From NCBI GenBank assembly GCA_947642445.1, contig CANRSF010000001.1, positions 117,062-181,061 on the forward strand: 64,000 nucleotides of DNA, given 5' to 3'. The position numbers and the translations under genes are program-made. This document shows positions 10,777 to 30,726 of this stretch, in pieces (position 1 is the first letter of the stretch; every line of letters starts with the position of its first letter). Under the pieces are notes generated by a model. The model saw nothing but the letters and a program-made list of their open reading frames with translations, did not search any database and was not told the DNA's origin. This stretch comes from an uncultured Collinsella sp. (lineage in GTDB: Bacteria; Actinomycetota; Coriobacteriia; Coriobacteriales; Coriobacteriaceae).

Positions 10777-10977
10777 ATGAAGCTCCTTACATAGAAGCAT
10801 GTGTATAACTCTATGTTGAATATAGCGGAGGATGGCGTTGGGCGTGTGCGTGCCTGCATTCGTAAGCGCGGTTGTCTGGCAAGTGTGATTTGGGGCGACC
10901 TCGTCAAAGCTTCTGAGCTGCGAAAATGACCGTTAACCGGATTTAATTTTGTTGCTCAACATTTGACACTCTGGGCG

Positions 10978-11048: not shown

Positions 11049-11083
11049 TTGTGACAGCCTTTGACACCCTTGGAGCGTGTACT

Positions 11084-11767
11084 GTGGATATAACCACAAA
11101 AAGCGTTCGGGGGGGGGTGCTCACCCGCGAGCAATTCCTCCCGCATGAGATGCGCATCGTCGCTGCCCTTCGTATGCAGGGCGCAAGCGACGAGCAGGTC
11201 ATTGTACGCGTAAAGAGCGAGAACCTCTTTCAATATCCCACGGAGCGCATGGTCGCCAACCGCGCAACCGTGTGCCTTCGACGCCTCGACGCCATGGTGC
11301 CCACGGACGCCGCATGCGCCGTGCGTGGCATCGACTCCAATATCGCCGTCGAGGCTGTGTCATCCCTAACCAGGCTCATGGCATCCGGCACTCCCACGCA
11401 GGCGGACCAGGCCATCTTCTACAGCATGATCTGCCGCTACGATATCGTGCGCGAGCTCGTGCTCGTCGAGGTAGGGGAGCGCCTACAAAACTTCGATTAT
11501 GCCTTTACGGCGGTTGACCTCAATGCCTTTATGACACGCTTTACCACGGAGTATCCGGACGCGGCCCGCTGGACTGAGGCCACGGTCAAGCGCATTAAGG
11601 GCTCGCTCCGCCAGACGCTCCGCCATGCCGGCCTTATCGGCGAGGGCCAGGGCCCGGAGTCCGAGCGTCTGTCACCACTCTTCCTCGATTCCGATGTCGA
11701 GCGAGCCTTGGTTCTGCTGGGCGAGCAGTCGCTTATCGCGGCCCTTACCGGCAGGGTGGTGATGTAG
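11084..11767 (+). CDS. brxA: BREX type 1 protein BrxA (DUF1819)
   Basis: This first gene of the BREX island encodes a small helical DUF1819 protein (about 227 residues). Members are DNA-binding and part of the BREX core, although the precise role is not settled. Family-like segments are GGVLTREQFLPHEMRIVAALRMQG, ENLFQYPTERMVANRATVCLRRL and, later, a bundle leading to RIKGSLRQTLRHAGLIG. The GTG at 11084 has GGAG 8 bases upstream; the ORF-track start at 11015 falls inside a leader hairpin and is unlikely. Codons 9-12 consist of a run of nine G. The stop is one base before the brxB GTG. Assignment relies on synteny as well as sequence. Confidence 0.8.
   Translation: MDITTKSVRGGVLTREQFLPHEMRIVAALRMQGASDEQVIVRVKSENLFQYPTERMVANRATVCLRRLDAMVPTDAACAVRGIDSNIAVEAVSSLTRLMASGTPTQADQAIFYSMICRYDIVRELVLVEVGERLQNFDYAFTAVDLNAFMTRFTTEYPDAARWTEATVKRIKGSLRQTLRHAGLIGEGQGPESERLSPLFLDSDVERALVLLGEQSLIAALTGRVVM
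11109..11117 (+). repeat. G9 homopolymer inside brxA
   Basis: Nine consecutive G residues (CGG GGG GGG GTG) encode Arg-Gly-Gly-Val near the start of BrxA. Gain or loss of one G would shift the frame about ten codons into the first gene of the operon. Confidence 0.95.
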
Positions 11768-11768
11768 C

Positions 11769-12461
11769 GTGGCTCCCGTCAACAGCGCCGCCGAACCTGC
11801 TATCACCCCGGCGACCGATTTCACCACCAATATCGGCATCCATTCCCGTAAGAGCGTCGTGGCGGCGCATGTCCGCTCTCAGCACGCCTGTCAGGAATTT
11901 GAGCGCCGCGCGCAGCTTCTGCGCGAATGCCTGTGCAGCGAGGACTTTTTGGCTAACAAGGGCATAGGCAATGAGATCGGCTTCCACACCTTTTGCTATG
12001 ACCCCGCGCTGGAGTTTGAGGCGCGTGCATTATTTGACACCCTTTCACGCGATGCCGAGGCCGACAAGCTTCCGTGCACGCTCAAGGTCGTGAACCTCTA
12101 CGACGCCGTGCTGGCAATTCTCGAAAAGCGCCGTGTCCTTAAGGCCATCCCACGCCAAGAGGAGCGCCGCGGTACCCAGCGCGTGCTCGAGGACGTGGCC
12201 AAGTTCGCCTCGCCCGAGATAGTCGCCGCGTACATCCTTGAGCAGACCGAGCCGCACGCGCCTGGAGACGTCGTTCTCCTCACCGGCGCGGGCGAGGTCT
12301 TCCCATTCTTTCGCATGCACACGCTTCTCCATTGCATGCTTGCGGATTTTGATGAGGTGCCTGTGGTCGCCGCCTATCCGGGCAGTTTCAACGGCTCTTC
12401 TTTCCAGCTCTTTAACCGTCTGCCGGCCGACAACTACTACCGCGCCATCGATATCTCGTAA
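11769..12461 (+). CDS. brxB: BREX type 1 protein BrxB (DUF1788)
   Basis: This 230-residue soluble protein shows the DUF1788 pattern: NEIGFHTFCYDPALEFEARALFDTL, TLKVVNLYDAVLAILE, DVVLLTGAGEVFPFFRMHTLL and the C-terminal FQLFNRLPADNYYRAIDI, where the family typically ends in NYYRA. It is a core BREX component of unknown activity, proposed to bridge other Brx proteins. The start is a GTG one base after the brxA stop, so translation is probably coupled; a frameshift in brxA could therefore lower BrxB too. It is 78 bases from brxC. Confidence 0.85.
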   Translation: MAPVNSAAEPAITPATDFTTNIGIHSRKSVVAAHVRSQHACQEFERRAQLLRECLCSEDFLANKGIGNEIGFHTFCYDPALEFEARALFDTLSRDAEADKLPCTLKVVNLYDAVLAILEKRRVLKAIPRQEERRGTQRVLEDVAKFASPEIVAAYILEQTEPHAPGDVVLLTGAGEVFPFFRMHTLLHCMLADFDEVPVVAAYPGSFNGSSFQLFNRLPADNYYRAIDIS

Positions 12462-12539: not shown

Positions 12540-15500
12540 ATGGACAACACGATCATTCGCGACCTCTTTGCAAAAGACATCAACCGCTCCATCAACGGCG
12601 TGGTCAAGGTCCAGGATTCAAAAGATGGGTCCATCCGCCAGGAGCTTGACGAGTACGTGGTGACGCGCGAGTTGCAGAGGCACTTTGCCACGTTCTTCAA
12701 GGCCTACGGCGATGCCATCGATGCGCGCACCGACAAGATCGGCGTGTGGATCAGTGGTTTCTTCGGTTCCGGTAAATCGCACTTCCTCAAGATGCTGAGC
12801 TACCTGCTCGAGAATCGCCAGATCGGCGGCAAGAGCGCCATCCGCTACTTTGACGGCAAGATCGTCGACCCCATGGTCGCGGCTGCCATGGAGCGCGCCT
12901 GCTCGGTGCCCACGCAGGCCATCCTCTTTAACATCGATAGCAAGGCGGGTCAGTGGAAGCAGGGCGATACGGCTCCCACGGCGCTGCTTCGCGGCTTTGA
13001 GCGCATGTTCTACGAGGCGCGCGGCTTCTACGGCGAGGACCTCAAGCTTGCAAAGCTCGAGGACTACATCGATTCCCTGGGCAAGACCCAGGAGTTCCGC
13101 GAGGCCTTTGAGCGCGTCAACGGCGAGTCCTGGCTCCAGGCCCGCGACACCTACAGCTACTTTGAGGACGACGTCGTCGAGGTGCTGCAGAGCGTGCTCG
13201 GCATGAGCGAAAAGGCCGCATGGAACTGGCTCGAGGGTTCTGAGGACGAGGTTTTGGCCCCCGATGTCTTTGCCAAAAAGGTCAAGGATTACGTGGACGC
13301 TCAGGCAGCGGCCCACGGTGGCAACTTCCGTTTGCTCTTTATGGTCGACGAGGTGGGTCAGTTTATTACAAACGACCAGGACCCAAGCCTTATGCTGAGC
13401 CTTCAGACCATCGTCGAGGAGCTGGGTGCCGCCTGCGGTGGCCGCGTGTGGGTAATGGTTACGAGCCAGGAGGCCATCGACAACCTGAGCCTGCCCGTGG
13501 GCAACGACTTTTCAAAGATCCAGGGCCGTTTCAATACCCGCCTTTCGCTCTCCAGCTCCAGCGTGGACGAGGTCATCCAACGCCGTGTGCTCGAGAAGAC
13601 CGCGCCGGCGGCCGATATGCTTGCACAGGTCTACGAGCAAGACGCCGCCGTCCTCAAAAACAACTTTACCTTTGAGGGCGGCTCGCGCTCCGACCTTGCC
13701 GGCTACGCCAACTCCAAGGATTTTGTGGCCAGCTACCCGTTTGTGGGCTACCAGTTTAAGCTCCTGCCCGACGTGATGACCGAGGTACGCAAGCATGGTG
13801 TTAAGGCCAAGCACATGTCCACGGGCGAGCGCTCCATGCTGAGCGCGTTTCAGGAGAGCGCTCAGGCCATCCAGCATGACCAGACTGGTGCACTCGTGCC
13901 GTTCTGGCGCTTCTTCGACACAATCTCCAAGGATTTGGAGCACGGCATCATTCAAGTCGTCGTCTGTGCGGAGCGCGCGGCTGAAAACGCAGAGGGTCTT
14001 GAGAGCTACGATGTCCGGGTGCTTAAGCTCCTGTACTTGATCCGCTACATCGGCTACGTCAAGGCCACGGTCGAGAACATCTCCATCCTTATGATTGATA
14101 GCCTGGACGTGGACAAGCGCGCCCTTAAGGACCGCGTCAAGGAATCTCTCGCCCGCTTGGAGCGCGAGAACTACGTGGCACGCCAGGGCGATACCTATAG
14201 CTTCCTCACCGACGAGGAGCAGGAAATAGCGCAGGAGATCGCACGCACCCCGATCGACAACGCGAAGGTGATTGAATACATCAAGAAGCGCCTGTTCGAA
14301 AGCATCTACACTGCGCGCAAACTCAACCGCGGGGCCAACGACTTCCCCTTTGACCGCTACGTGGATGGCTCGATTCATGGATCCAACATGGGCGGCATGG
14401 CACTTTCCGTGGTGACCATGGCCAGCGATCTGGGCCGTTCGGACGATGCCGAGTTGGCATTGAAATCCGTGGATAAGGCCATCGTGGCCTTGAGCGACGA
14501 GGTGGATTATTGGGCTCCACTCGTCAACGCCGCCAAGATCCGCAAGTACGCCAAGACGCGAAATCTCCAGGAGCTTCAGCCGAGTACGCGCCAGATCGTC
14601 GAGTCCAAGATGCGCGAGGCGGCCTATAACGAGAAAGAGGCCGATACCCTTTTGAGCGAGGCCGTGCTCCATGCACGTTGCGCGGTCAACGGCCGCATGG
14701 TTGAGGTCCGCGCGGCCAAACCCGTTCAGGTTTTTGAGCAAGTGCTGGCGCAGCTGTGCGATGTGGTCTTTGATAAGGCCGACTATATCGGTGCGCCGGT
14801 CACGAGCGATTCCGATATTCGCTCCACTCTGGCGGGCGACGTTCAAGTGGGGCTCGCTGGCATGGACGCGGGTAACACGCGTGCGCTCAAGGAGGTCGAG
14901 GACTACCTCAAAGTGCAGCACCAGCGCCACCTAGATACCGCTATGGGCGATATCCAGCGCCAGTACCAGCAAAGGCCCTTTGGCTGGCGCGAGGTCGACA
15001 TCGCAAATGTGGTGGCGCAGCTTGTGGTGGAGCAGCGCGCGCAGGTGCTGTTTGGCGGTCAGACGGTTCAAGCTAACGACAGCCGCATGGTGGCGCTCCT
15101 GCGCAAGGATGCCGATAAGGCCCAGGTGCGCTTGCGCATGCGCATGAGCGACCGGTTGCTACGCGCCGCGGGCGAACTCATGTGTGACCTGTTTGATCTC
15201 AAGACCGTGCCCTCCAACGAGGATAAGCTCGTGGCCGAGCTCAAAGAGCGCCTTGAGGGCTTGCGCGAGGCGTGCCTCGCCATAGCACGCGACTACTACA
15301 CGGGCATCAAGCCGGCCTACCCGTATCCCGGTGAGGACGAGTGCGAGAAGATGCGCTCGGAGGTGGCCGACGTCCTTAAGGACCAGAACGAGGCCGAGGC
15401 GTTCTTGACCACGTTCACCAAGCATGAGGAGCGCTTGCTCGATGCTAAGGAAGACTTTGACAAGGTGGTTGAGTTCGTCGAGTCCAATCAACGAACAGCG

Positions 15501-16202
15501 TTTGACCACGCCAGGGATTTCTTGAACCGCACCGAGGGTATCGAGTATGCCTCCGATGACATTCCCAGCGCGGTGGAGAACGTGGCAAAGGTGCGTGAGA
15601 TCCTCAAAGATCCCAAGCCCTACGGCCGTATTAAAGACCTGCAGCCGCTTATGGATCCCGTCGAGGATGACATGAAAAAGCTGCTGGGCATCCGCCGCAA
15701 TGAGTTTTTGTGTCGCATCGAGAGCGATCTGCAAGACCTGCGGGCGCAGGCCGAGAGTCAAAAGGGCTTTGTCAATCAGGCCAAGGATGCCATAGCAGAC
15801 GCCGGCACCAAATACGAGTCGTTCAAAAACCGTGCCCACAGCGCTCAAAGTCTCAACGAACTGAGCGTTGTTGCAACTAACTGGGGCGACTGGCTCAGTG
15901 CGGCGGCCAACGAGATGTACGACGCTGTGGATGAGGCCCGCGTGCGTATGGACAACGAGCGCCGCACCACCGAGGTCATGAGTACGGGTGAGGTGGTCAA
16001 GAAGGTCTCCAACAAGGGCGCCGCATCGTCTGCTCCCGTGCCCGCGCCCAAGCCCCAGCGCAAGATCAAGACTGTGCGCCGCGCCGATCTGGCCAAGCCG
16101 AGTCGTCTCTTGTCCGCAGAGGATGTGGAGCGCTACGTGGACGACTTGCGCTCCCGCCTTATGCAGGCGCTCGCTGCAAACGACGAGATCCGTATCAACT
16201 AA
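12540..16202 (+). CDS. brxC: BREX type 1 ATPase BrxC/PglY
   Basis: This large 1220-residue ATPase has the typical size for BrxC. A Walker A motif GFFGSGKSHFLKM lies near residue 73, and LLFMVDEVGQFI near residue 265 looks like Walker B. The rest is helical with long Glu/Arg-rich stretches; the tail before the C-terminus is Pro/Ala/Lys-rich (SSAPVPAPKPQRKIK). BrxC is essential for BREX defence in characterised systems and is thought to act as an AAA-like motor or switch around the methyltransferase-PglZ complex. AAAGGAG precedes the ATG. An intercistronic hairpin follows before pglX. Codon use matches the host-like part of the island. Confidence 0.93.
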   Translation: MDNTIIRDLFAKDINRSINGVVKVQDSKDGSIRQELDEYVVTRELQRHFATFFKAYGDAIDARTDKIGVWISGFFGSGKSHFLKMLSYLLENRQIGGKSAIRYFDGKIVDPMVAAAMERACSVPTQAILFNIDSKAGQWKQGDTAPTALLRGFERMFYEARGFYGEDLKLAKLEDYIDSLGKTQEFREAFERVNGESWLQARDTYSYFEDDVVEVLQSVLGMSEKAAWNWLEGSEDEVLAPDVFAKKVKDYVDAQAAAHGGNFRLLFMVDEVGQFITNDQDPSLMLSLQTIVEELGAACGGRVWVMVTSQEAIDNLSLPVGNDFSKIQGRFNTRLSLSSSSVDEVIQRRVLEKTAPAADMLAQVYEQDAAVLKNNFTFEGGSRSDLAGYANSKDFVASYPFVGYQFKLLPDVMTEVRKHGVKAKHMSTGERSMLSAFQESAQAIQHDQTGALVPFWRFFDTISKDLEHGIIQVVVCAERAAENAEGLESYDVRVLKLLYLIRYIGYVKATVENISILMIDSLDVDKRALKDRVKESLARLERENYVARQGDTYSFLTDEEQEIAQEIARTPIDNAKVIEYIKKRLFESIYTARKLNRGANDFPFDRYVDGSIHGSNMGGMALSVVTMASDLGRSDDAELALKSVDKAIVALSDEVDYWAPLVNAAKIRKYAKTRNLQELQPSTRQIVESKMREAAYNEKEADTLLSEAVLHARCAVNGRMVEVRAAKPVQVFEQVLAQLCDVVFDKADYIGAPVTSDSDIRSTLAGDVQVGLAGMDAGNTRALKEVEDYLKVQHQRHLDTAMGDIQRQYQQRPFGWREVDIANVVAQLVVEQRAQVLFGGQTVQANDSRMVALLRKDADKAQVRLRMRMSDRLLRAAGELMCDLFDLKTVPSNEDKLVAELKERLEGLREACLAIARDYYTGIKPAYPYPGEDECEKMRSEVADVLKDQNEAEAFLTTFTKHEERLLDAKEDFDKVVEFVESNQRTAFDHARDFLNRTEGIEYASDDIPSAVENVAKVREILKDPKPYGRIKDLQPLMDPVEDDMKKLLGIRRNEFLCRIESDLQDLRAQAESQKGFVNQAKDAIADAGTKYESFKNRAHSAQSLNELSVVATNWGDWLSAAANEMYDAVDEARVRMDNERRTTEVMSTGEVVKKVSNKGAASSAPVPAPKPQRKIKTVRRADLAKPSRLLSAEDVERYVDDLRSRLMQALAANDEIRIN

Positions 16203-16268: not shown

Positions 16269-18728
16269 ATGAACGATTCTGCTCTTAAGAGCTTCTGCAC
16301 CTGGGCCCGTACGGAGCTCATCAAAGGCGTGGAGGCGCAGATGGTGCGCTACGGCATCACCGAACCTGCACCCGCGCCCGTTGGGTCCGAGACCGTTAGC
16401 GGCCTGCCCCTAAGTCCGGCTGAGATTGAGCAACGCGACGAACTGCTGCGCATGCAGGCAGAGGTGGGTCACGAGGCGCTGCGCGACCGTGCGGCCTACA
16501 CCTGGTTCAACCGCATCGTGGCCATTCGCTTCATGGATGCACGCGGATGGCTTCCCAGCCGCATGCGCATGCTAAGTCGTGCGGACGGCAGCCATGGCAG
16601 CGAGGCCGTGGAGAACGCACTGGACGTAGAGATAGCGACGGCCGATACCGATCGCATAGCCGAGCTCAAGATGGCGGGCTTGGATGAACCGCTGTGGCGC
16701 TATCTGTTTGTTGCTCAGTGCGAGGAGCTTGCCGATTGCCTGCCGGGTGTCTTTGAGCGCGTGGGCGGAGCCATGGAGCTGCTGTTGCCCCAGGGCCTCA
16801 TGATGTCCGACGGCGTGGTGGGCAAACTCAACACCATTCTCGCTGACGAGGACTGGCGCAAGGGCGTGACCGTTCTGGGCTGGATGTATCAGTACTACAA
16901 CGCTGACGTCAAAGACGAGTTCTTCAAGTCCAAGCGCAAGGCAGCGGCGGCGGACATCGCGCCCGCCACGCAGCTCTTCACCCCCGAGTGGATCGTGCGC
17001 TATATGGTCGAGAACTCGCTCGGCCGTCTGTGGATGCTCAGCAATCCGGGGAGTTCGCTACGCGAGCGCATGGAGTATTACATCGCGCCCGATGCTGAGC
17101 ACGAGGACTTCATCCACATCTCGAGCCCCGAGGATATAACCCTCTGCGACCCAGCGTGCGGCTCGGGCCATATCCTGGTTTATGCGTTTGATCTGCTCTT
17201 CCATATGTACGAGGAGCGCGGCTACCGCGAGCGCGAGATCCCGGAGCTCATCCTGACCAAAAACCTCGCTGGCATGGAGATCGATTCCCGCGCGGCACAG
17301 ATCGCGGAGCTGGCGCTTGCCATGTGCGCCCGCGAGCACGACCGTCGCTTCTTTAGGCGTGGCGTTCGTGCCGACGTTACCGTGCTCTCGAGCATCCCGC
17401 TAGGGGAGGACGAGCTGCCGGGTAACAAGAAGCTCGCCGAGGAACTGAGCCATTTGGGCGAGATCGGTTCGCTGCTCAATCCTTCAGAGGACGAGATCGA
17501 CGAGCTCAAGACTGCCGCGGCGAGCTGTTCCGACGACCTTTTTGCCGCTACGACCAAAACTAAGCTCGAAAGCGCCGCCGCCATCTGCGAGAAGCTGTCC
17601 CGTCGTTTTACCTGCACTGTGGCGAATCCTCCGTATATGGGCAGTAGCAGCTTTAACTCGTTCATGAGTAAGTGGGTCAAGAGGAATTATCCCGACGTGA
17701 AGAGTGACCTGTTCTCCAGCTTTGTCGTTCGCATGTTCAGTCTCGCCAAGGACCACGGCGAGTGCGGAGTCATGTCGCCTTTCGTCTGGATGTTCATCGG
17801 AAGCTATGAGAAGCTCCGCAACGAGATTATCGACAACAGAACGCTGACCTCTCTCATCCAGCTTGAGTACTCGGGCTTCGCTGGCGCGACCGTGCCCATC
17901 TGTACCTACACGTTCCACAATTCGTTCGTCAAGGGCTACAAGGGCGGCTATGTGCGCCTTTCGGACTTCGTTGGTGCTGCTGTCCAGGCCCCGAAGGCCC
18001 TCGAGGCGATCCGAAACCCCGACTGCGGCTGGTTCTACCGCCGCGACGCCGACACCTTCAAGCAAATCCCCGGCACCCCCATAGCCTACTGGGCCAGCGA
18101 GGGGTTACTTTCTGCTTTCTCGCTGGGTAGCTCCATTGGCGATTTTTCGGACTACACAGGGTCTCAAAACAAAACAGGTGATAACAATTTGTATTTGCGC
18201 TTGTTTTGGGAGGTTGATGCACATTCGGTTGGGCGCAAGGGCTCGTGGGCCACTTATTCAAAGGGCGGTGACTTTCGTCGATGGTTTGGCAATCTTCATT
18301 GGCTGGTTTCGATCAAGAAGGACGCAATTGAGTTTTACCGGAGTAATCCGACCTCCAATTTGTTGGCGTCGAAATATTGGTACAGTGAAGGCATTTGCTA
18401 CACAATGCTGACATCAGGCAAGCCGAGTTTCAGGCTATTTCCACCGACGGGCGGATTTGACATGGCCGGCCCATGTATTTGCAATCTGGGCCAAAACAAG
18501 AACTGGGCGCTGGGCTTCCTCAATTGTTCCATCGCTGCCGATGTCCTCAGCATGCTTAACCCCACTCTTAACATGCAAGTGAGAGACATCAAAGCTCTTC
18601 CCATGCTTATTTCCGCTGAGCTTCAACCGGCAATTAATAGTCTGGTCGACAGCAACGTAGACATTTCCAAAATCGACTGGGACTCGTTTGAAACCTCTTG
18701 GGATTTCAAGCGCCATCCACTGATTTAG
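16269..18728 (+). CDS. pglX: BREX methyltransferase PglX, N-terminal part (split gene)
   Basis: PglX methylates adenine to mark self DNA in BREX. This 819-residue ORF has an N-terminal helical region, SAM-binding motif DPACGSGHILVYAFDLL (about residue 293), and catalytic motif IV NPPY (about residue 451), then a target-recognition region. It stops right after DWDSFETSWDFKRHPLI. In single-chain PglX proteins this segment is followed by a further ~320-residue domain, bringing the length to about 1150-1220; here that domain is a separate ORF (19490-20458). The last ~600 bases are visibly more AT-rich than the first 1800, suggesting exchange of the recognition region. The start at 16269 follows AGAAAGG. 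Confidence 0.92.
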   Translation: MNDSALKSFCTWARTELIKGVEAQMVRYGITEPAPAPVGSETVSGLPLSPAEIEQRDELLRMQAEVGHEALRDRAAYTWFNRIVAIRFMDARGWLPSRMRMLSRADGSHGSEAVENALDVEIATADTDRIAELKMAGLDEPLWRYLFVAQCEELADCLPGVFERVGGAMELLLPQGLMMSDGVVGKLNTILADEDWRKGVTVLGWMYQYYNADVKDEFFKSKRKAAAADIAPATQLFTPEWIVRYMVENSLGRLWMLSNPGSSLRERMEYYIAPDAEHEDFIHISSPEDITLCDPACGSGHILVYAFDLLFHMYEERGYREREIPELILTKNLAGMEIDSRAAQIAELALAMCAREHDRRFFRRGVRADVTVLSSIPLGEDELPGNKKLAEELSHLGEIGSLLNPSEDEIDELKTAAASCSDDLFAATTKTKLESAAAICEKLSRRFTCTVANPPYMGSSSFNSFMSKWVKRNYPDVKSDLFSSFVVRMFSLAKDHGECGVMSPFVWMFIGSYEKLRNEIIDNRTLTSLIQLEYSGFAGATVPICTYTFHNSFVKGYKGGYVRLSDFVGAAVQAPKALEAIRNPDCGWFYRRDADTFKQIPGTPIAYWASEGLLSAFSLGSSIGDFSDYTGSQNKTGDNNLYLRLFWEVDAHSVGRKGSWATYSKGGDFRRWFGNLHWLVSIKKDAIEFYRSNPTSNLLASKYWYSEGICYTMLTSGKPSFRLFPPTGGFDMAGPCICNLGQNKNWALGFLNCSIAADVLSMLNPTLNMQVRDIKALPMLISAELQPAINSLVDSNVDISKIDWDSFETSWDFKRHPLI

Positions 18729-18736
18729 GTGTTTTT

Positions 18737-19429
18737 ATGACCGTAGAGAAGAATCAATTCGACGAAGGTGTTAACAGGGTCTCTAGTCTTTTGGCACTGT
18801 ATGACAGCCTGCAAATAGAAGGATCTGCTAGAACGTCGAAGGAAAAAAGACCGACGGATATCTTGCGCGCTGCGCTCGTTTTGCTTCATTCGGCGGAAGA
18901 GGATTATTTTCGTAATATACTCATTCATTGGTATCCCATAAAGGCTGATTCGAAAGCCTTGAGCGAAGTCTCGCTAGCTGGCAGTGATGGAAGAACATCC
19001 AAGTACAGCTTTGATAGATTTGCTTCCTTTTCTGGCAAAACCGTCGATGAAGTAATTTCCGAATCTGTGCGTGAGCATTTTTCGCGAATGAGTTTCAACA
19101 GCTATAAAGATATTGATAGTCGCCTTAAAAAGATAGGCTTGTCGCTCGGTGCTTATAAGCGACAAGCTGAAATAGATGCGCTAATTCAGCGAAGGCACAA
19201 GGTTGTTCACGAAGTTGATTTAATGCAGGACGAATCAAGTGGAAAGAGCCGAACAAGACCTATTAAATCTGCTCAAGTTCGGATTTGGATGGAATGCTCA
19301 ATGGACTTGGTTCAAACAATTGATGAGCAAGTGAGTGCTTGGGAAAAACAGGAAACACAACCGCCGGAAGAAAGCTCCGTCGGCATCGATGAAACCGTTT
19401 GCGCTGGAGAAGAGCCGAATGGGGCATAG
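18737..19429 (+). CDS. RiboL-PSP-type HEPN protein inserted in pglX
   Basis: This 230-residue protein starts MTVEKNQFDEGVNRVSSLLALYDSL and contains DILRAALVLLHSAEEDYFRN, SFNSYKDIDSRLKKIGLSLGAYK and QRRHKVVHEVD. The last holds the R-x4-H signature of HEPN RNases with a polar residue (His) after Arg. The overall pattern matches the RiboL-PSP-HEPN family, often found beside restriction or toxin systems. It lies 8 bases after the PglX-N stop and 60 before PglX-C, same strand, in visibly AT-rich sequence. Likely role (inference): an RNase effector released when BREX fails, or a modulator of PglX. No antitoxin is obvious unless PglX itself is the partner. Confidence 0.75.
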   Translation: MTVEKNQFDEGVNRVSSLLALYDSLQIEGSARTSKEKRPTDILRAALVLLHSAEEDYFRNILIHWYPIKADSKALSEVSLAGSDGRTSKYSFDRFASFSGKTVDEVISESVREHFSRMSFNSYKDIDSRLKKIGLSLGAYKRQAEIDALIQRRHKVVHEVDLMQDESSGKSRTRPIKSAQVRIWMECSMDLVQTIDEQVSAWEKQETQPPEESSVGIDETVCAGEEPNGA

Positions 19430-19489
19430 CCGTGTTTCTTCAATTTCCTGTTGTTGACAACGTCTTATACATTCATTAAGAGGTAACTA

Positions 19490-20458
19490 ATGTCAATCTT
19501 ACTTTCTGATAAATACGAGGCTCGCAAGGCCGAGGTCAATGCTCGCTTTGAGCAGCTTCGCGCTAACGAGGAAGAACTCAACCGCATCTTCGCCAAAATC
19601 TACAACATGGAGGGGGAGGTGCCCATCGAGGTCGAGGATAAGTACGTTTCGGTGGCGCGCATCTTTGATACCGCCGATGAGATTCCCGAGAGCTATAAGG
19701 GCAACAAATACGTGCGCACCAAGCGCGACGAGATCACCTCGCTCATAAGCTACGCCGTGGGCTGCATGTTTGGCCGCTATTCGCTGGATGCGGACGGGCT
19801 GGTCCTGGCCGATCAGGGCGCCACGGTTGACGACTACCTGGCCAAGATGCCCGATCCCGATCATGTGACCTTTATGCCCGACGCCGACAACGTACTGCCC
19901 ATCACCGACGACGAGTACTTTGACGACGACATCGTGCGCTACTTTATCGACTTTGTGCGCACTGTGTACGGCGAGGAGACGCTCGAGCAGAACCTGGCCT
20001 TTATTGCCGAGGCGCTCGGCGGCAAGGGCACCTCGCGCGAGGTAATCCGCACCTACTTTTTGAAGGACTTCTTTAAGGACCACTGCCAGACCTATAAGAA
20101 TCGTCCCATCTACTGGCTGCTCGACAGCGGCAAGAAGAATGGCTTCAAGTGCCTTGTTTACATGCATCGCTACCAGCCCGACCTGTTGGCTCGCATCCGC
20201 ACCGACTATGTGCATGAGCAGCAGGAGCGCTATCGTTCCCAGATCGGCTATGCCAACGACGCCCTTGCCGGTGCCGAGCGCGGCGAGCGCGTGCGTTTGG
20301 ATAAGCGCGTCAAAAAACTCAATGACCAGCTCAAAGAGACCATTGGCTACGAGGAGAAGCTGCACCACTTGGCAGACCAGATGATTAAGATCGACCTGGA
20401 TGACGGCGTCAAGGTCAACTACGCCAAGTTTCAGGATGTGCTGGCGAAGATTAAGTAA
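19490..20458 (+). CDS. pglX: BREX methyltransferase PglX, separate C-terminal domain
   Basis: This 322-residue ORF is homologous in pattern to the C-terminal domain of full-length PglX: EEELNRIFAKIYNMEGEVPIEVEDK, LISYAVGCMFGRYSLD, DEYFDDDIVRYFIDFVRTVYGEE, FLKDFFKDHCQTYKNRPIYWL, DSGKKNGFKCLVYMHRY and IKIDLDDGVKVNYAKF. It has its own ATG with AAGAGG 8 bases upstream, so it should be made as a free polypeptide and may reassemble with PglX-N. Codon use returns to the GC-rich host style within about 30 bases of the start. The domain carries no methyltransferase motifs; in single-chain PglX it contributes to structure and DNA contacts. It is 23 bases from pglZ. Confidence 0.9.
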   Translation: MSILLSDKYEARKAEVNARFEQLRANEEELNRIFAKIYNMEGEVPIEVEDKYVSVARIFDTADEIPESYKGNKYVRTKRDEITSLISYAVGCMFGRYSLDADGLVLADQGATVDDYLAKMPDPDHVTFMPDADNVLPITDDEYFDDDIVRYFIDFVRTVYGEETLEQNLAFIAEALGGKGTSREVIRTYFLKDFFKDHCQTYKNRPIYWLLDSGKKNGFKCLVYMHRYQPDLLARIRTDYVHEQQERYRSQIGYANDALAGAERGERVRLDKRVKKLNDQLKETIGYEEKLHHLADQMIKIDLDDGVKVNYAKFQDVLAKIK

Positions 20459-20481: not shown

Positions 20482-23190
20482 ATGCCTAAGATCGATGTAG
20501 AAGAACAGCTCAAACTGCGGTTTTTGCAACCGTTGCCTGCATGCGTGCCGCGCCGTGTGGTGGTTTGGCACGATGCGGACGGCGAGTTTGCCCATGAGTT
20601 TGAGCGGTTGGCCGCCGAGGGTTTCGACGGCGCGGGGGCCGATGACGGCGTTATGCCCGCTCACGGTGACTTTGAGCGCCCAGTGCGCTTTGTTGAGGCC
20701 TGCGAGGGCCACATGTTTGCCGTTAAGAAGCTCATCAACCGCGATGACCTTGCGAACGATATCTTGCTGTATCGTCGTTGCCCGCGCGGCAGGCTTGAGG
20801 GCGATTGGCTTGCCGATGTTGAGCTGTATGCCGATCAGTTCCAGGCTGACTATCTTTCGCTTTTGGCCGATCAGCTGGGAATCGAGAATATCGACGCCGT
20901 GCGCGAGAGTCTGCGCGAGCACAAGACGTTCTTTGATGCCAAGACCCGCTGCGTTAAGTTTGCCGCGTGTGTTCCGCATGCTTCGGGCGCATCAGATATC
21001 GAACTCGGTATCCTTACGGTGATTTTTGGCGGTAAAGAGGTTGGCGACGCGCGCCCCGCGTTTGTGCTGCGCGGCTGTATGACCACGCTGCTGCACGAGG
21101 GCCCCGAAGCGCTGGCTGCGCTGGTGGATAAGTACAGCTTGCGCGACGTCCTCTCTGCCTTTATGCTGCGCTGCTATGGGTTTGATGGGCCGCTGTACGA
21201 GCGCGACTCACTGCTTATGCTTGCATCCCATGTGCTCCTTACGGCGGCATCCACCGCGCTTCCCGAGGGGGCGCTCAAGGGACTCGAAAGCTATGTGGCT
21301 CCCGCCTACGGCCCCTATTGTCTTGAGGCGGTGCGTACGTGGGACCAGGCCGCCGATGCCCAGGTATCGAGCGAGGATTTATTTGAGATCTGCCGTTTGG
21401 TGGAGGATGCCCGCGGGCTCTTTGCACGGTTTGAGGCCCTGTCGATCGATGTGCTGACCTCGCTTGATGTGTTCCCGTGCGTCAATGAGGCCGTACTCTC
21501 GCAGCTGTTCTGCTCGTTTGCTCAGGGCGCGGACCGTGTTGCGGATGCGCGCGCCTTTGCGGCGCGTCGCTGCGACCTAAGCTGGTACCGCCGTGTCGAG
21601 AGCTACTTTGACTTGCTTGCCGCCGTGGCCGATATGTGCGCGTTTAGGCAGGCACACGCGGGCGGGTTCCATCTGGCGCAGCCCCAGCAGGTGTGGGATG
21701 CCTACACGTCCGATTGGTATGCCATGGATGCCGCCTATCGTCATATGTGCACCGCGTATCTGCGGGCGCGCTCCGTCGAGTGCGATGTGCTCGAGGAGCC
21801 TGCCCGCGCTGTGGCGGACTGGGCGGAGAATCTCTACAGTAACTGGTTCTTGGCCGATGCCAATGCCTGCTGGGCGGTCGCTGCGCAAGGGGAGTGGGCC
21901 GATTGCGGTTACATCGATGGTCCTGCACGGCAGGATGAGTTCTACTGGCATGTGCTGCCCACCTTTGTGGGCTCTGCCAAGACGACGGTCGTTATCGTGA
22001 GCGACGCACTGCGCTATGAGGTGGCCTGCGACGTTGCGGCTCTGCTCGAGCGCGAGCGCGGCGGCAACGTCAAGGTCTCTAGCATGCAGGCGGTCTTTCC
22101 CTCCATTACCGAGGTGGGCATGCCCGCGCTGCTGCCGCATCAGGCGCTTGAGCTTGCAGCGGATGGTTCGTTTGTGCTGGTTGACGGCATGCCAACTGCG
22201 ACGACTCCGCAGCGCGAGGCCGTACTTACCCACATTGAGCCCACGGCCCGCGCTTTGCGCTCGAGCGCATACCTCAACATGGCGGGAACCGAGCGCAAAG
22301 CGCTGCTCAAAGATTCCAAGCTCGTTTATCTCTACCACAACAAGATCGATGCCACGGGCGAGAAGGCAGCTACGCAGGATGACGTTTTCGATGCCTGCGC
22401 GGACACCGTGGAGGAACTTGCCGCGTTGGCGCGCCGCGTGTGCACCGACGCCCCGGGCGCGCGTGTTGTTATAACGGCGGATCACGGCTTTATCTACACG
22501 CGTCGGGAGCTCAACGAGTGTCAGATGCTCGGCAAGCCAGACCTTCCCTTCCCTGACGCTCCCGTCATGCACGGCAAGCGTCATCTGGTGGTGCCCAACG
22601 AGGCCGTGGCCAAGCTTTCGGAAGAGGCATGCGGGGTGTTTGTTAATGTTGGCATGGGACGTTTGGGTGCCGGTTTTGAGGGATTTGCCCCGCGCGAGAA
22701 CGTGCACTTCAAGCGTCCCGGCGGCACTAACAACTACGTCCACGGCGGCATGAGCCTGCAGGAGCTCTGCGTGCCCGTTATCGGTTTTTGGCGTGCGCGC
22801 TCGGGTTCCAAGGACTTTGTCGACACGCGCGCGGCGACGCTGCGCGTGCTAAGTGAGGGACGCCGAGTGACCAACTCGCTCTTCTCGGTCAACTTGATCC
22901 AGGAAGAACCTGCCCAAGGTAAGGTCTTGCCGTGCGAGTACGAGCTGGTGTTTACCGATGCAAGTGGTAACGAGGTGAGCGATACGGTCAAGGCGCATGC
23001 CAACAAGACTTCTGTTAACTCGCAGGAGCGCGTGGTGCATGCCAAGTTTGCGTTGCATGCAGCGGATGGATTCTCGGCCAAGGGTCCGTACTATTTGGTC
23101 TGCCGCGAGCGCGAAACGGGCAAGATCGTTTGGCGCGAGACGTACACCATCGCTGTTTCGTTTGCCCCTGTTGCTGACTTTGGTTTTTAG
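20482..23190 (+). CDS. pglZ: BREX type 1 phosphatase-like protein PglZ
   Basis: This 902-residue protein has the length of type A PglZ. The C-terminal half holds the alkaline-phosphatase-superfamily core: TVVIVSDALRYEVACDV near residue 506 (metal-binding Asp), SMQAVFPSITEVGMPALLPH, and VVITADHGFIYTR near residue 663 (D-H motif). The final part, FKRPGGTNNYVHGGMSLQELCVPVI, supplies another conserved His. PglZ pairs with PglX in BREX; its in-vivo phosphatase or nuclease target is unsettled. The gene starts 23 bases after PglX-C with AAGG upstream; its stop TAG is merged with the AGGAG of brxL, indicating coupled translation. Confidence 0.93.
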   Translation: MPKIDVEEQLKLRFLQPLPACVPRRVVVWHDADGEFAHEFERLAAEGFDGAGADDGVMPAHGDFERPVRFVEACEGHMFAVKKLINRDDLANDILLYRRCPRGRLEGDWLADVELYADQFQADYLSLLADQLGIENIDAVRESLREHKTFFDAKTRCVKFAACVPHASGASDIELGILTVIFGGKEVGDARPAFVLRGCMTTLLHEGPEALAALVDKYSLRDVLSAFMLRCYGFDGPLYERDSLLMLASHVLLTAASTALPEGALKGLESYVAPAYGPYCLEAVRTWDQAADAQVSSEDLFEICRLVEDARGLFARFEALSIDVLTSLDVFPCVNEAVLSQLFCSFAQGADRVADARAFAARRCDLSWYRRVESYFDLLAAVADMCAFRQAHAGGFHLAQPQQVWDAYTSDWYAMDAAYRHMCTAYLRARSVECDVLEEPARAVADWAENLYSNWFLADANACWAVAAQGEWADCGYIDGPARQDEFYWHVLPTFVGSAKTTVVIVSDALRYEVACDVAALLERERGGNVKVSSMQAVFPSITEVGMPALLPHQALELAADGSFVLVDGMPTATTPQREAVLTHIEPTARALRSSAYLNMAGTERKALLKDSKLVYLYHNKIDATGEKAATQDDVFDACADTVEELAALARRVCTDAPGARVVITADHGFIYTRRELNECQMLGKPDLPFPDAPVMHGKRHLVVPNEAVAKLSEEACGVFVNVGMGRLGAGFEGFAPRENVHFKRPGGTNNYVHGGMSLQELCVPVIGFWRARSGSKDFVDTRAATLRVLSEGRRVTNSLFSVNLIQEEPAQGKVLPCEYELVFTDASGNEVSDTVKAHANKTSVNSQERVVHAKFALHAADGFSAKGPYYLVCRERETGKIVWRETYTIAVSFAPVADFGF

Positions 23191-23201
23191 GAGTGTGCCC
23201 T

Positions 23202-25610
23202 ATGTTTGATAGCCATGACGACGATCTGTGGGAAGTTCCCTCGATTGATGTGAATGCGCCCGTGCAGGCTGCTGTGCCTGTAGGGGAAGCCGTGCCTGCC
23301 CCGGAGGCTGAGACTGTCGAGCCTGCCTCGGAGGCTGAGGCTGCTGCGGAGGCCGTGGCTTCCGCGCTTGTCCCGGAGCCGACGGAGACCGCTGCGCCCG
23401 CCGAGGCCGAGGCGCCCGCCGAGGACGAGTCCTCAACCGATGGCTATGCCCAAGCCGTGGCCGAGACTCCCGAGGACGACGGCTACGACATGGATGTACT
23501 GGACGGCAAGCTGCTCGAGCACTTTGGCGGCAAGATCGTGCGCAAGGACCTTACGGCCCTTATGAAGCGTGGCGCCAACGTGCCTACCTTTGTGCTGGAG
23601 TACCTGCTGGGCATGTACTGCTCAACCGACGACGAGGATGCCGTGGCGGAGGGCCTGGGGCGCATCCGCAAGATCCTCACCGATAACTACGTGCGTCCCG
23701 ACGAGTCCGAGCGCATTAAGTCCAAGATCCGCGAGCTGGGTCGCTTTACCATCATCGATAAGGTGACGGCCAAGCTCGACGAGTACAAAGACATCTACGT
23801 GGCGTCGTTTGCCAATCTGACCATCGAACCGTTTGTGATGCCGGCCGAGTACGTGCGCGACTATTCCAAGATTCTGCAGGGTGGTATTTGGTGCATCATG
23901 AGCATCGAGTATCGTCACCCCTTGGATGAGGAAGACGAGTTTGGCATGGAGGTCTTTGGCGACGATGCGCCGCGCCGCGCCAAGGCCAAGCGTAAGAAGC
24001 GTGGGCCCGAGGACTCTCCGTTCAGCGTGGCGTCGCTCACGCCCATCCAGATGCCCAACCTGGACCTGGATGCCATGGTCGAAGAGCGCCAGTATTTCTC
24101 GCGCGACGAGTGGCTCAACATGCTGCTGCGCTCCGCTGGCTATGAGCCCAGCGAGCTTTCCGAGAAAGAACGCCTGCACTTTATCGAGCGTATGGTGCCG
24201 CTCATCGAGCGCAACTACAATCTGTGCGAGCTTGGTCCCCGCGGTACCGGCAAGAGCCATATCTACAAAGAGGTTTCGCCCTACGCCATCTTGCTTTCGG
24301 GCGGGCAGACCACCACAGCCAACCTGTTCGGCCGTATGAACTCCATGCGCGCCGATCGCGTGGGCTTGGTGGGCCATTGGGATTGCGTGACGTTCGACGA
24401 GGTCGCCGGCATGCGCTTTAAGGACACCAACGCCGTACAGATCATGAAGGACTATATGGCGAGTGGCAGCTACGCGCGCGGCCGCGACCAGATTAACGCC
24501 GATGCCTCCATGGTCTTTGAGGGCAACATCAACGACACCGTGCAAAACGTCCTTAAGACCACGCACTTGTTTGATCCGTTCCCACCGGAGTTCAACAACG
24601 ATTCGGCCTTTTTCGACCGTATCCACTATTACCTGCCGGGCTGGGAGATTCCCAAGATGCGCTCGAGCCTGCTGACCGGGCATTACGGCTTAATCACCGA
24701 CTGCCTGTCGGAGTTTTGCAAGGAGATGCGTCGCAAGGACTTTACGCATCATATCGACCGCTACTTCCGCTTTAACAGCGACTTTAACAAGCGTGACGAG
24801 ATCGCCGTGCGCAAGTCCTTTAGCGGCCTGGCCAAGCTGCTGTTCCCCGACGACGCTATGGACAAGGACGACGTTCGCTGGCTGCTGGACTACGCCATCG
24901 AGGGCCGCCGCCGTGTAAAGGAACAGCTCAAGATTATGGCGGGCGTCGAGTTTATCGACGTCAACCTGGGCTATATGGATGCCGACAATCCGCAGGACGT
25001 GCACGTGGTGCGCGTGCCCGAGCAGTCCGAGGATACGCTGATTCCCGACGGGCCGCTGTTGTCCGGCCACGTGTTTGGTGTGGGCAGGTCGCAGGGCGGC
25101 GAGGTTGCCGTGTACAAGCTGGAGAACAAGGCCGTTGCCGGCGAGTGCAAGTTTAAGCACGAGGGCGTTGCCTTTAATAAGCCGGTGCGCGATACGCTGG
25201 AAGCCGCGTTTGACAACTTTGTGAACCTGGCGAACCGTGTGGCGCCGGGCATGCACATTGGCTCAAAGGACTACCTGCTGTTCTATAACGACCTGCAGAG
25301 CAAGGGCCTGTCCGAGGAAGTCTCGCTTGCCGAGTTTGTGGGCCTGTGCTCCGCGGCGTGCAACCGCCCGGCGATGTCCGCGCTGGCGGTTCCGGGAATC
25401 CTGCGCATGTCGGGCTCTATGGATGAGATCCGCGGGCTCGAGGACATTATGCGCGTGGCTAAAAACGCCGGTGCCAAGCGCGTGATTTTGCCGCTGAGCG
25501 CCATCGCGGGCCTGCAGAGCGTTTCGTCCGAGATTATATCGGGGTTGAGCCCGGTGTTCTACATGGATGGCGATCCGGTCGATGCCGCGAAGAAGGCGTT
25601 GGATCTATAG
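23202..25610 (+). CDS. brxL: BREX Lon-like ATPase BrxL
   Basis: This 802-residue AAA+ protein has an N-terminal DNA-binding-type domain (LDGKLLEHFGGKIVRKDLTALMKRG), ATPase core with Walker A GPRGTGKSHIYKE (about residue 345) and VTFDEVAGM, and a C-terminal Lon-like domain (NLANRVAPGMHIGSKDYLL to the end). BrxL is known to form ring-shaped, DNA-encircling assemblies; the Lon-like part is not a proven protease. Unusually, residues ~15-90 are a low-complexity Ala/Glu/Pro segment (AEAAAEAVASALVPEPTETA) not part of the family core. The ATG at 23202 was chosen because AGGAG lies 9 bases upstream. It closes the canonical BREX set. Confidence 0.92.
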   Translation: MFDSHDDDLWEVPSIDVNAPVQAAVPVGEAVPAPEAETVEPASEAEAAAEAVASALVPEPTETAAPAEAEAPAEDESSTDGYAQAVAETPEDDGYDMDVLDGKLLEHFGGKIVRKDLTALMKRGANVPTFVLEYLLGMYCSTDDEDAVAEGLGRIRKILTDNYVRPDESERIKSKIRELGRFTIIDKVTAKLDEYKDIYVASFANLTIEPFVMPAEYVRDYSKILQGGIWCIMSIEYRHPLDEEDEFGMEVFGDDAPRRAKAKRKKRGPEDSPFSVASLTPIQMPNLDLDAMVEERQYFSRDEWLNMLLRSAGYEPSELSEKERLHFIERMVPLIERNYNLCELGPRGTGKSHIYKEVSPYAILLSGGQTTTANLFGRMNSMRADRVGLVGHWDCVTFDEVAGMRFKDTNAVQIMKDYMASGSYARGRDQINADASMVFEGNINDTVQNVLKTTHLFDPFPPEFNNDSAFFDRIHYYLPGWEIPKMRSSLLTGHYGLITDCLSEFCKEMRRKDFTHHIDRYFRFNSDFNKRDEIAVRKSFSGLAKLLFPDDAMDKDDVRWLLDYAIEGRRRVKEQLKIMAGVEFIDVNLGYMDADNPQDVHVVRVPEQSEDTLIPDGPLLSGHVFGVGRSQGGEVAVYKLENKAVAGECKFKHEGVAFNKPVRDTLEAAFDNFVNLANRVAPGMHIGSKDYLLFYNDLQSKGLSEEVSLAEFVGLCSAACNRPAMSALAVPGILRMSGSMDEIRGLEDIMRVAKNAGAKRVILPLSAIAGLQSVSSEIISGLSPVFYMDGDPVDAAKKALDL

Positions 25611-25705: not shown

Positions 25706-27058
25706 ATGGCGGAAGAGCGTTCTGTTGGCGAGTTGCTCGACGAGCTGTTTGGCTTTGAGTCGGTAGCCAAGCGTCAGGCGGCGCTTGAGCAGTACGACCG
25801 CGGGGAGTTATTGCGCAAGGCGCGCTCCCGCGAGCTGCTGGCCGTGATCGAGGGCGTCGAGTCTGCCGAGCGTGCTGCGCGTGAGTCTGCCGTGCAGGCC
25901 GTTGACGGGCATGTGCGCCGCGTTGAAGCCGAGTCGCTTGCGCGGGCTCGCAAGCAGATGGGCGTTGTGGGCCCGTTGCAGATGGAGCGGCGCTACGCTG
26001 CCTTTTTGCGTATGGAGGACAAGGCCGAGCTGTTGGCCCGCTTGGAGCAGACGCTTGCGTTTATCGAGGTAAAGCTGCGTGCCAATACGGCGGACAGGGT
26101 TCGTGCGGCGTACGATGCTGCGGGGGCTTTGGTGCTGCAGGGCGCGGCGCGTCTGAGTAACGTGCACGTTGTGGATGCCGTGCCCCTGGATGCCGATCTG
26201 CTGTGCACGCAGTTGGAGCAGCTGCGTTGTGCCGCCGATACAACGGACCTTGCCGGCATGATTACGGCGACGTTTGAGTCCGAGCTGAGTGCGACCGGGC
26301 CGCGGAATGCTGGCGGGTTTGCTGGCGATGTTGCCGGCGACGTGGCGCTGGAGCGTGAGCTTACTAATGTGCGCGGTGCTGCGCAGCGAGCGCGCTTGGC
26401 GGCCCAAGCGTATCGGGCCGAGCGTGCCGCCCGCGTTGCGGGGAGCACGGTGGAGCCGGTGTCGTTGCCGGGGCCTGTTTGCATTACGTGTGAGACGGGG
26501 TGCGATGCCGGAGGGCTTTTCGAGTTGCTCGCTCAGGTTAAGAAGTCGTTTGAGACCTATAGGCGCGTTGTTGCCGACGGCGGGTTGTTCTGTGCCTTTG
26601 GTGCCGGTTCGCCGCATGGGATTTGCCGCGGCAGTAGTTATTTCGACTACGATGATCGGTTTGACGAAGACGTGTTGGTGGGCGAGTACGACGGTGCTAC
26701 CAGGCACAATGTTCGGCGCGAAGTTGCGATTCCCGAGCTTGTGGACGAGGCTTCGGCCGACGGCGGCGACTCACTCGAGGTTGCCGTGGCGCGCATGCGC
26801 GAGTTTAACGGACGGCGCTACGATGGTGTGCTGGACGAGGATCCTGCGCGCCATGTGGATGCGTTTTGGTATGGACTCAAAAAGCTCAGCCAGTATTGCG
26901 AGGCCGCTGTGCGTGTGGATGAGCGTGCCTGGGATTGCTTTATCGATAAAGTACAGTTTGCCTACGACGAGCCCGTGGGGCGTTTGGCCACGCAGATGGA
27001 TGACAAGCAGGTTGCGGCTTTTGTTGCCGCTGTGAATGCGCTCGGCGCTGCTGAGTAG
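25706..27058 (+). CDS. Unrecognised protein downstream of brxL
   Basis: I do not recognise this 450-residue soluble protein. The N-terminal ~130 residues are strongly helical and charged (ERSVGELLDELFGFESVAKRQ..., possibly coiled coil). A middle part is Ala/Arg-rich, and the C-terminal ~200 residues look globular with CITCETGCDAGG, FETYRRVVADGGLFCAFG and a closing FWYGLKKLSQYCEAAVR segment. No Walker, nuclease or methyltransferase motif is evident. GAGGAGG lies just before the ATG, 95 bases after brxL on the same strand, so it is probably a BREX-linked accessory gene. It is followed 27 bases later by a tiny acidic ORF, likely co-expressed. Confidence 0.6.
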   Translation: MAEERSVGELLDELFGFESVAKRQAALEQYDRGELLRKARSRELLAVIEGVESAERAARESAVQAVDGHVRRVEAESLARARKQMGVVGPLQMERRYAAFLRMEDKAELLARLEQTLAFIEVKLRANTADRVRAAYDAAGALVLQGAARLSNVHVVDAVPLDADLLCTQLEQLRCAADTTDLAGMITATFESELSATGPRNAGGFAGDVAGDVALERELTNVRGAAQRARLAAQAYRAERAARVAGSTVEPVSLPGPVCITCETGCDAGGLFELLAQVKKSFETYRRVVADGGLFCAFGAGSPHGICRGSSYFDYDDRFDEDVLVGEYDGATRHNVRREVAIPELVDEASADGGDSLEVAVARMREFNGRRYDGVLDEDPARHVDAFWYGLKKLSQYCEAAVRVDERAWDCFIDKVQFAYDEPVGRLATQMDDKQVAAFVAAVNALGAAE

Positions 27059-30379: not shown

Positions 30380-30710
30380 GGGTAGCTAATTTGGGACGGA
30401 GCTTTTTTGACTACTTTCGGAGAATAGCGCCTTCTTGCTCGGTAAGCGCTAGAAATGAGGAGCGTCTGCGTCCTCGGCAGTGCGAAAATGCTCGAAAAAC
30501 CATCGCAACGGAGTCAAACGACGTTGCGACGGTTCTTTTTTGGCTGCCCGCTGGCTAAGTGAGTAGACTTTTTTGGAAATGCCGAGCAGCCGGCAAATTT
30601 GCCTCAACAAAACCGCAGGTCACTGACTTGTGTTTTGCCGGTGTGGTCAGGGATTCGGCAAAAGTCTACTCACTTAGTTTTGCGTGTCACAAATCGTCCG
30701 CAACGAGACC
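30380..30710 (+). repeat. Long intergenic repeat R2 (related to R1)
   Basis: This ~330-bp non-coding element shares with R1 the opening GGTAGCTAATTTGGGACGG, a terminator hairpin, the 18-bp inverted arms CTAAGTGAGTAGACTTTT (30555-30572) and AAAAGTCTACTCACTTAG (30660-30677), and the end GTCCGCAACGAGACC. It is followed by eight C residues. The arms can fold into a large cruciform or RNA hairpin with small internal stems. R1 and R2 are direct repeats bracketing two genes. Confidence 0.85.
30498..30541 (+). terminator. Terminator of the phosphatase gene, inside R2
   Basis: AACCATCGCAACG pairs with CGTTGCGACGGTT (one wobble pair) over an 11-nt loop, followed by CTTTTTT. Confidence 0.8.
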
Positions 30711-30726
30711 CCCCCCATTGCGCCAA

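Follow-up and report, generated by a model that had tools for sequence, protein, structure and literature searches.

Introduction

Phase variation of phage defence has been described for the Pgl system of Streptomyces coelicolor, a type 2 BREX. According to PMC4365076, where Sumby and Smith 2003 is cited, pglX of this system carries a G tract that goes from 8 to 7 G, with switching at 1e-2 to 1e-4, and a one-base change breaks the frame with loss of phage defence. Among gut actinobacteria, the sortase-dependent pili of Bifidobacterium breve are under a poly-G ON/OFF slippage switch that was measured by maximum depth sequencing (PMC9187656), and phase-variable type IIG restriction-modification in Campylobacter jejuni places a methylation and defence function under frame control (PMC4889913).

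The present analysis concerns a 64,000-nucleotide stretch of DNA from an uncultured Collinsella sp. (hereafter the window), for which a first-pass annotation had proposed a G9 tract at the start of brxA as a candidate phase switch for BREX, with a G tract in a pgl gene of S. coelicolor as precedent. The precedent is real, and the locus resembles Pgl in having a coding poly-G of about 8 Gs in a BREX/Pgl system of an actinobacterial host; the likeness concerns tract and frame, and a corresponding defence phenotype would be expected. Unlike in S. coelicolor, where the tract is within the methyltransferase gene pglX, the Collinsella tract lies in the N-terminal leader of brxA in a type 1 system, and other Coriobacteriia lineages have it in a leader that forms its own cistron, coupled to brxA. 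Phase variation of the Pgl type in pglX was rejected for this locus: the window holds two runs of at least eight G (11109-11117 and 30709-30716), neither of them in pglX, and because its tract is not within that gene the Collinsella switch is not the Pgl locus.

The arrangement is also similar to that of the B. breve pilus switch (PMC9187656), where a poly-G (there G10-G11) lies close to the start of an operon's first gene and an out-of-frame tract has downstream polarity; it differs in that defence rather than pili is concerned and that the Collinsella switch is proposed from genome comparison. Frame control is likewise shared with the C. jejuni type IIG system, in which, unlike here, the tract is in the modification enzyme and no leader is coupled to an accessory DNA-binding gene (PMC4889913). 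At brxA, as at contingency loci, tract length sets the frame and differs between close relatives. The literature that we searched, which covered few subscription papers, reports no brxA phase variation and no leader-coupled BREX switch; the leader switch at brxA is therefore provisionally novel, and what is new relative to that literature is the coupling of leader cistrons to a defence operon in just one reading phase.

Results

All six BREX genes are present in the window, in order and on a single strand, which identifies the operon as type 1 BREX (PADLOC, Pfam):

11084..11767, plus strand: brxA, GTG start, 227 aa at G9 (Pfam PF08849, 1.8e-32; PADLOC BrxA, 1e-27)
11769..12461, plus strand: brxB, GTG start (PADLOC and Pfam)
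12540..16202, plus strand: brxC (PADLOC and Pfam)
16269..18728, plus strand: N-terminal part of pglX, methyltransferase and target-recognition region (PADLOC PglX profile 1-869)
19490..20458, plus strand: C-terminal part of pglX, spacer and C-terminal region (PADLOC PglX profile 878-1170)
20482..23190, plus strand: pglZ (PADLOC and Pfam)
23193..25610, plus strand: brxL (PADLOC and Pfam)

The identities given earlier to BrxA, BrxB, BrxC, PglX, PglZ and BrxL are thus correct by both programs. For BrxA, PF08849 scores 113 bits against a cut-off of 23, and the solved structure that best matches the model is BrxA itself (7zge; Foldseek, E 1.7e-6). The brxA stop is TAG 11765-11767 and the GTG of brxB follows at 11769, which confirms the one-base spacing reported before; as brxB starts one base past the brxA stop, it is probably translationally coupled to brxA. 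The presence of pglX as two ORFs with a HEPN-family gene between them is a departure from the standard BREX layout.

The following elements set the reading of the 5' end of brxA:

11072..11075, plus strand: GGAG, Shine-Dalgarno of brxA (from the sequence; kept in the diverged homologue L006)
11109..11117, plus strand: G9 tract, codons 9-12 of brxA; G9 is in frame (ON)
11117..11119, plus strand: alternative GTG, codon 12, possible leaky start, in the brxA frame whatever the tract length
11146..11148, plus strand: TGA stop for G10 (in silico frames and G10 alleles)
11150..11152, plus strand: in-frame ATG (Met23), possible restart, one base past the G10 TGA
11211..11213, plus strand: TAA stop for G8 (in silico frames)

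The GGAG is separated by an 8-nt spacer from GTG 11084, from which brxA begins VDITTKSVRGGVLTREQF. The tract begins at the second base of codon 9 (CGG), runs through codons 10-11 (GGG GGG) and ends on the first base of codon 12 (GTG), in agreement with the placement first given. Early termination of BrxA upon gain or loss of one base, also predicted at that stage, was borne out in silico: G10 reads VDITTKSVRGGGAHPRAIPPA and stops at the TGA after 21 codons, G8 stops at the TAA after 42 codons, and among G8, G9 and G10 the full BrxA is obtained with G9 alone. Confidence in the AlphaFold model of BrxA is high (mean pLDDT 94) apart from residues 1-10 (pLDDT 61), and its first helices comprise residues 13-16 and 20-31, which places the tract outside the BrxA fold, in a disordered tail ahead of the first helix. 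RNA folding of the leader gave no significant structure and no clear contrast between G9 and G10 (z about -1), and a scan of the sense strand for sigma-70 promoters and terminators gave nothing informative.

This brxA was found in eight Collinsella genomes, the window genome included, with C. aerofaciens among the related contigs. Four have G9 and are in frame (the window genome, G008, G002 and G005), and four have G10 and stop after 21 codons (G036, G033, G007 and G001), and the smallest brxA difference between the two groups is 0.4%. In another genus, a second pair of close relatives shows the same two lengths (G055, G9, ON; G052, G10, OFF). The length is thus not constant across related genomes, the comparison that had been proposed as a check of the switch. 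The operon is otherwise intact in both groups where the contig is readable (that of G036 ends within pglX), and the readable OFF genomes have no other breaks in brxA or the downstream operon. Across the flanking 2 kb, no informative site unites the G10 genomes, and a single G10 clade is rejected by the AU test (p = 0.005), with conflicting sites that show heavy recombination. The tree requires two to three changes of tract length, a number that is unsure because the flanks recombine. Two lines of argument were dropped, namely selection on OFF alleles, for which the changes are too few, and the invariance of the fourfold sites of the tract, since just 13 of 112 fourfold sites vary in these brxA. 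In the diverged homologue (L006/G023, 56% identical) the start and frame are kept, and CTGGGAGGCGTG stands in place of the tract.

By base composition alone the G9 is unremarkable, since dinucleotide shuffles of the window predict about as many G8 matches as were seen (2.4 expected, 3 seen); genome-wide it is nonetheless rare, with only 7 tracts of at least nine G (8 matches) in 2.02 Mb. It is the position at brxA that is unusual. A Pfam BrxA search of 400 Coriobacteriia genomes gave 52 with brxA; 29 lineages were sampled. Sense runs of at least eight G near BrxA occur in at least 11 of the 29 lineages against 0.12 expected from the genome-wide density (Poisson p about 1e-18); reading two loci cut by contig ends raised the count to 13 of 29 (about 0.1 expected). 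The enrichment at brxA is about 100-fold, across many lineages. These 13 lineages comprise 23 loci in which a sense run of G8-G11 lies no more than about 400 bp 5' of the BrxA domain, all of the brxA type with a TREQ-like motif; G052 and G055 are close relatives among the sampled genomes and the rest are more distant. The other 16 lineages have no tract at brxA. No tract was found in the other brxA type within Coriobacteriia (12 of 12), and no run of at least eight G at the corresponding place in brxA of the same phylum outside Coriobacteriia (9 of 9) or in Firmicutes-type and viral-contig BrxA relatives. The tract is nearly always 22-32 nt past a start codon, which in most cases has a clear Shine-Dalgarno; in the exception, G202, the scripted start is 41 nt before the tract and an ATG lies at 32 nt. 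Tract presence changes at least 5-7 times on the BrxA protein tree, so that its gain (or loss) happened repeatedly, and the recurrence appears to be convergent in part.

When the tract was varied by -1, 0 and +1 in silico at each of the 23 loci (G052 and G271 included), exactly one of the three phases joined the leader to brxA in all 23, a single-phase result that is nearly automatic for fusion of short leaders. The joining takes the form of an in-frame fusion to BrxA (genera g1, g3, g17, g56, g32 and one g18 genome) or of a leader that stops at the start codon of brxA. Leaders of the latter form are cistrons of their own, 30-122 codons long (g11, g52, g13, another g18 genome and g37). In the connecting phase such a cistron terminates where brxA begins (TAG immediately followed by GTG, overlapping ATGA, TAAATG and similar); in the two non-connecting phases it stops after 14-24 codons. 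For the distant leaders, shuffled spacers give a chance of connection of 0.05-0.4 each, or about 2e-7 jointly. As assembled, 10 of the 23 loci are ON (connecting) and 13 OFF. With distant separate leaders the effect of the switch may well be graded, because brxA there has its own start.

Upstream C-tracts, seen in two further lineages, were left uncounted. In G226 the connection fails, as no phase joins the leader to brxA; in G017/G039 one phase connects (the leader stop overlaps the brxA ATG), which is uninformative, as 71% of shuffled spacers do so too. In L070 and L073, runs of C11 and C9 precede the BrxA domain by about 120 bp; their lengths differ between the two genomes, and the leader that holds them has one phase in which its stop overlaps the ATG of brxA.

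Discussion

As anatomy, the reading of the brxA tract as a phase switch is strongly supported: the G9 and G10 alleles, the frame readings and the recurrence at brxA all bear out the original proposal. We consider it highly probable that the tract serves as a slipped-strand contingency switch that controls translation of the first BREX gene. Ribosomes would start at GTG 11084 and, with G9 as in the window, continue in frame into BrxA (ON); replication slippage that adds or removes one G would give an early stop and a short dead peptide (OFF). In the OFF state BrxA would be gone or strongly lowered, the coupled BrxB would probably be lowered too, and BREX methylation and defence would probably be off together. 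From the G9 and G10 alleles in relatives and the G-run leaders in about a dozen lineages it seems probable that defence is flipped ON and OFF randomly within populations; reversibility there and the phage phenotype are what we infer from this scheme. BrxA is needed for methylation and defence in Acinetobacter (PMC9122589) and Salmonella (PMC11341690) and is dispensable in E. coli HS BREX (PMC6326788); BrxB is required in all three (PMC9122589, PMC11341690, PMC6326788). The dispensability of BrxA in E. coli HS, the 16 of 29 lineages with no tract and possible leaks were counted against the switch, as were the recombining flanks, which blur the number of length changes, and the pN/pS of the G10 alleles given below.

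The leaks bear on the most serious alternative, which we regard as possible but rather doubtful, that the tract acts as a dimmer, BrxA being made from G10 alleles as well and length only tuning its amount. The stop in G10 need not amount to a full OFF, since GTG 11117-11119 is always in frame and ATG 11150-11152 comes after the stop. This GTG at the end of the tract is the only remaining start in the brxA frame before the domain in G10, an in-frame TAA lying upstream, and a protein started from it would keep all invariant residues; it has, however, no Shine-Dalgarno of its own except the adjoining G run. A restart at Met23 would remove R15, E16 and E22, all invariant in the alignment, together with the first short helix. 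Both starts could leak, and we take this leakiness to be the main uncertainty of the switch mechanism. Programmed slippage of RNA polymerase or the ribosome, by which some BrxA would come from every allele and the run be kept for expression control, would suit the several lineages that are now in a non-connecting phase. Such slippage is possible at runs of at least nine identical bases. We nevertheless judge it unlikely here, given the heritable G9/G10 differences between close genomes and the occurrence of such runs at typical contingency genes in the same genomes.

Slightly less likely still is that the G10 alleles are drifting pseudogenes in which the tract is just a mutational hot spot and its loss of frame not meant for reversal. 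Their pN/pS of 0.89, against 0.54 in G9 alleles (both from small numbers), means that some OFF alleles may be drifting; the lack of further breaks in readable OFF genomes speaks against this, and neutral decay does not account for the strong enrichment at brxA or for its several origins. A homopolymer error of sequencing or assembly, or a chance run, is very improbable. Composition does predict G8 runs in the window and several of the assemblies are from metagenomes, but each length is found in four separate assemblies, isolates included, with isolate contig coverage of 75 (G10, L004) and 88 (G9, L005), and the positional enrichment is strong.

With the slipped-strand switch as the preferred reading, it is likely, though less firmly so than the switch itself, that brxA of Coriobacteriia has repeatedly acquired a phase-variable leader (start codon, 22-32 nt, G8-G11), be it an N-terminal extension or a stop-coupled leader cistron, and that this leader makes type 1 BREX a bet-hedged defence that is switched at its first, DNA-binding component and not at the methyltransferase. 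This suggests partly convergent evolution of the brxA switch. BREX, which can be costly, is common, and apparently broken BREX genes are found in many genomes; a large share of the "broken" brxA in Coriobacteriia have the appearance of a switch in its OFF state. Annotators should be aware that a frameshifted brxA in this class may be able to revert. The G9 and G10 alleles constitute a natural ON/OFF pair in human gut commensals.

Additional observations

In the Collinsella loci read (16269-20458 in the window; also L049-L051 and L053-L056), pglX is split at the boundary of the target-recognition and spacer regions into an N-part of 819-838 aa and a C-part of 322 aa, with identities across loci of 65-94% and 93-97%, respectively. 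The gene between the parts is small and different in each genome read: in the window it is a Pfam HEPN_RiboL-PSP gene (18698-19429), and others have an RNxxAH motif like HEPN RNases. The arrangement resembles a PglX of two subunits whose parts flank an exchangeable, possibly toxic cargo gene. Directly after brxL, a 450-aa ORF (25706-27058) with no Pfam or PADLOC match is kept in the Collinsella loci read that far (86-92% identical) and is a possible extra BREX component. Upstream of brxA the palindrome TGTTGCTCAACA lies at 10950-10961 (wider form TTTGTTG-nn-CAACAAA); it occurs at comparable places in about 15 brxA lineages of Coriobacteriia, in G053, G369 and G240 downstream of the G tract and ahead of the BrxA domain, and is a likely operator.

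The only other G8 run of the window (30709-30716) is on the minus strand. Other tracts of at least nine G in the window genome closely follow the signal peptide of one large surface protein, fall at codons 10-13 of a LuxR-like membrane regulator and precede a large secreted protein rich in repeats; those of G001 and G002 are inside or ahead of genes for secreted, pilin-like and other surface proteins. All these functions were read from the sequences. Surface, pilin-like and regulator genes are the usual targets of contingency loci. The G9-G11 tracts near 5' ends of such genes (LuxR-like membrane regulator, surface and pilin-like; L067, L065:2897, L064, L123 and L124) apparently form an undescribed set of contingency loci in Collinsella.
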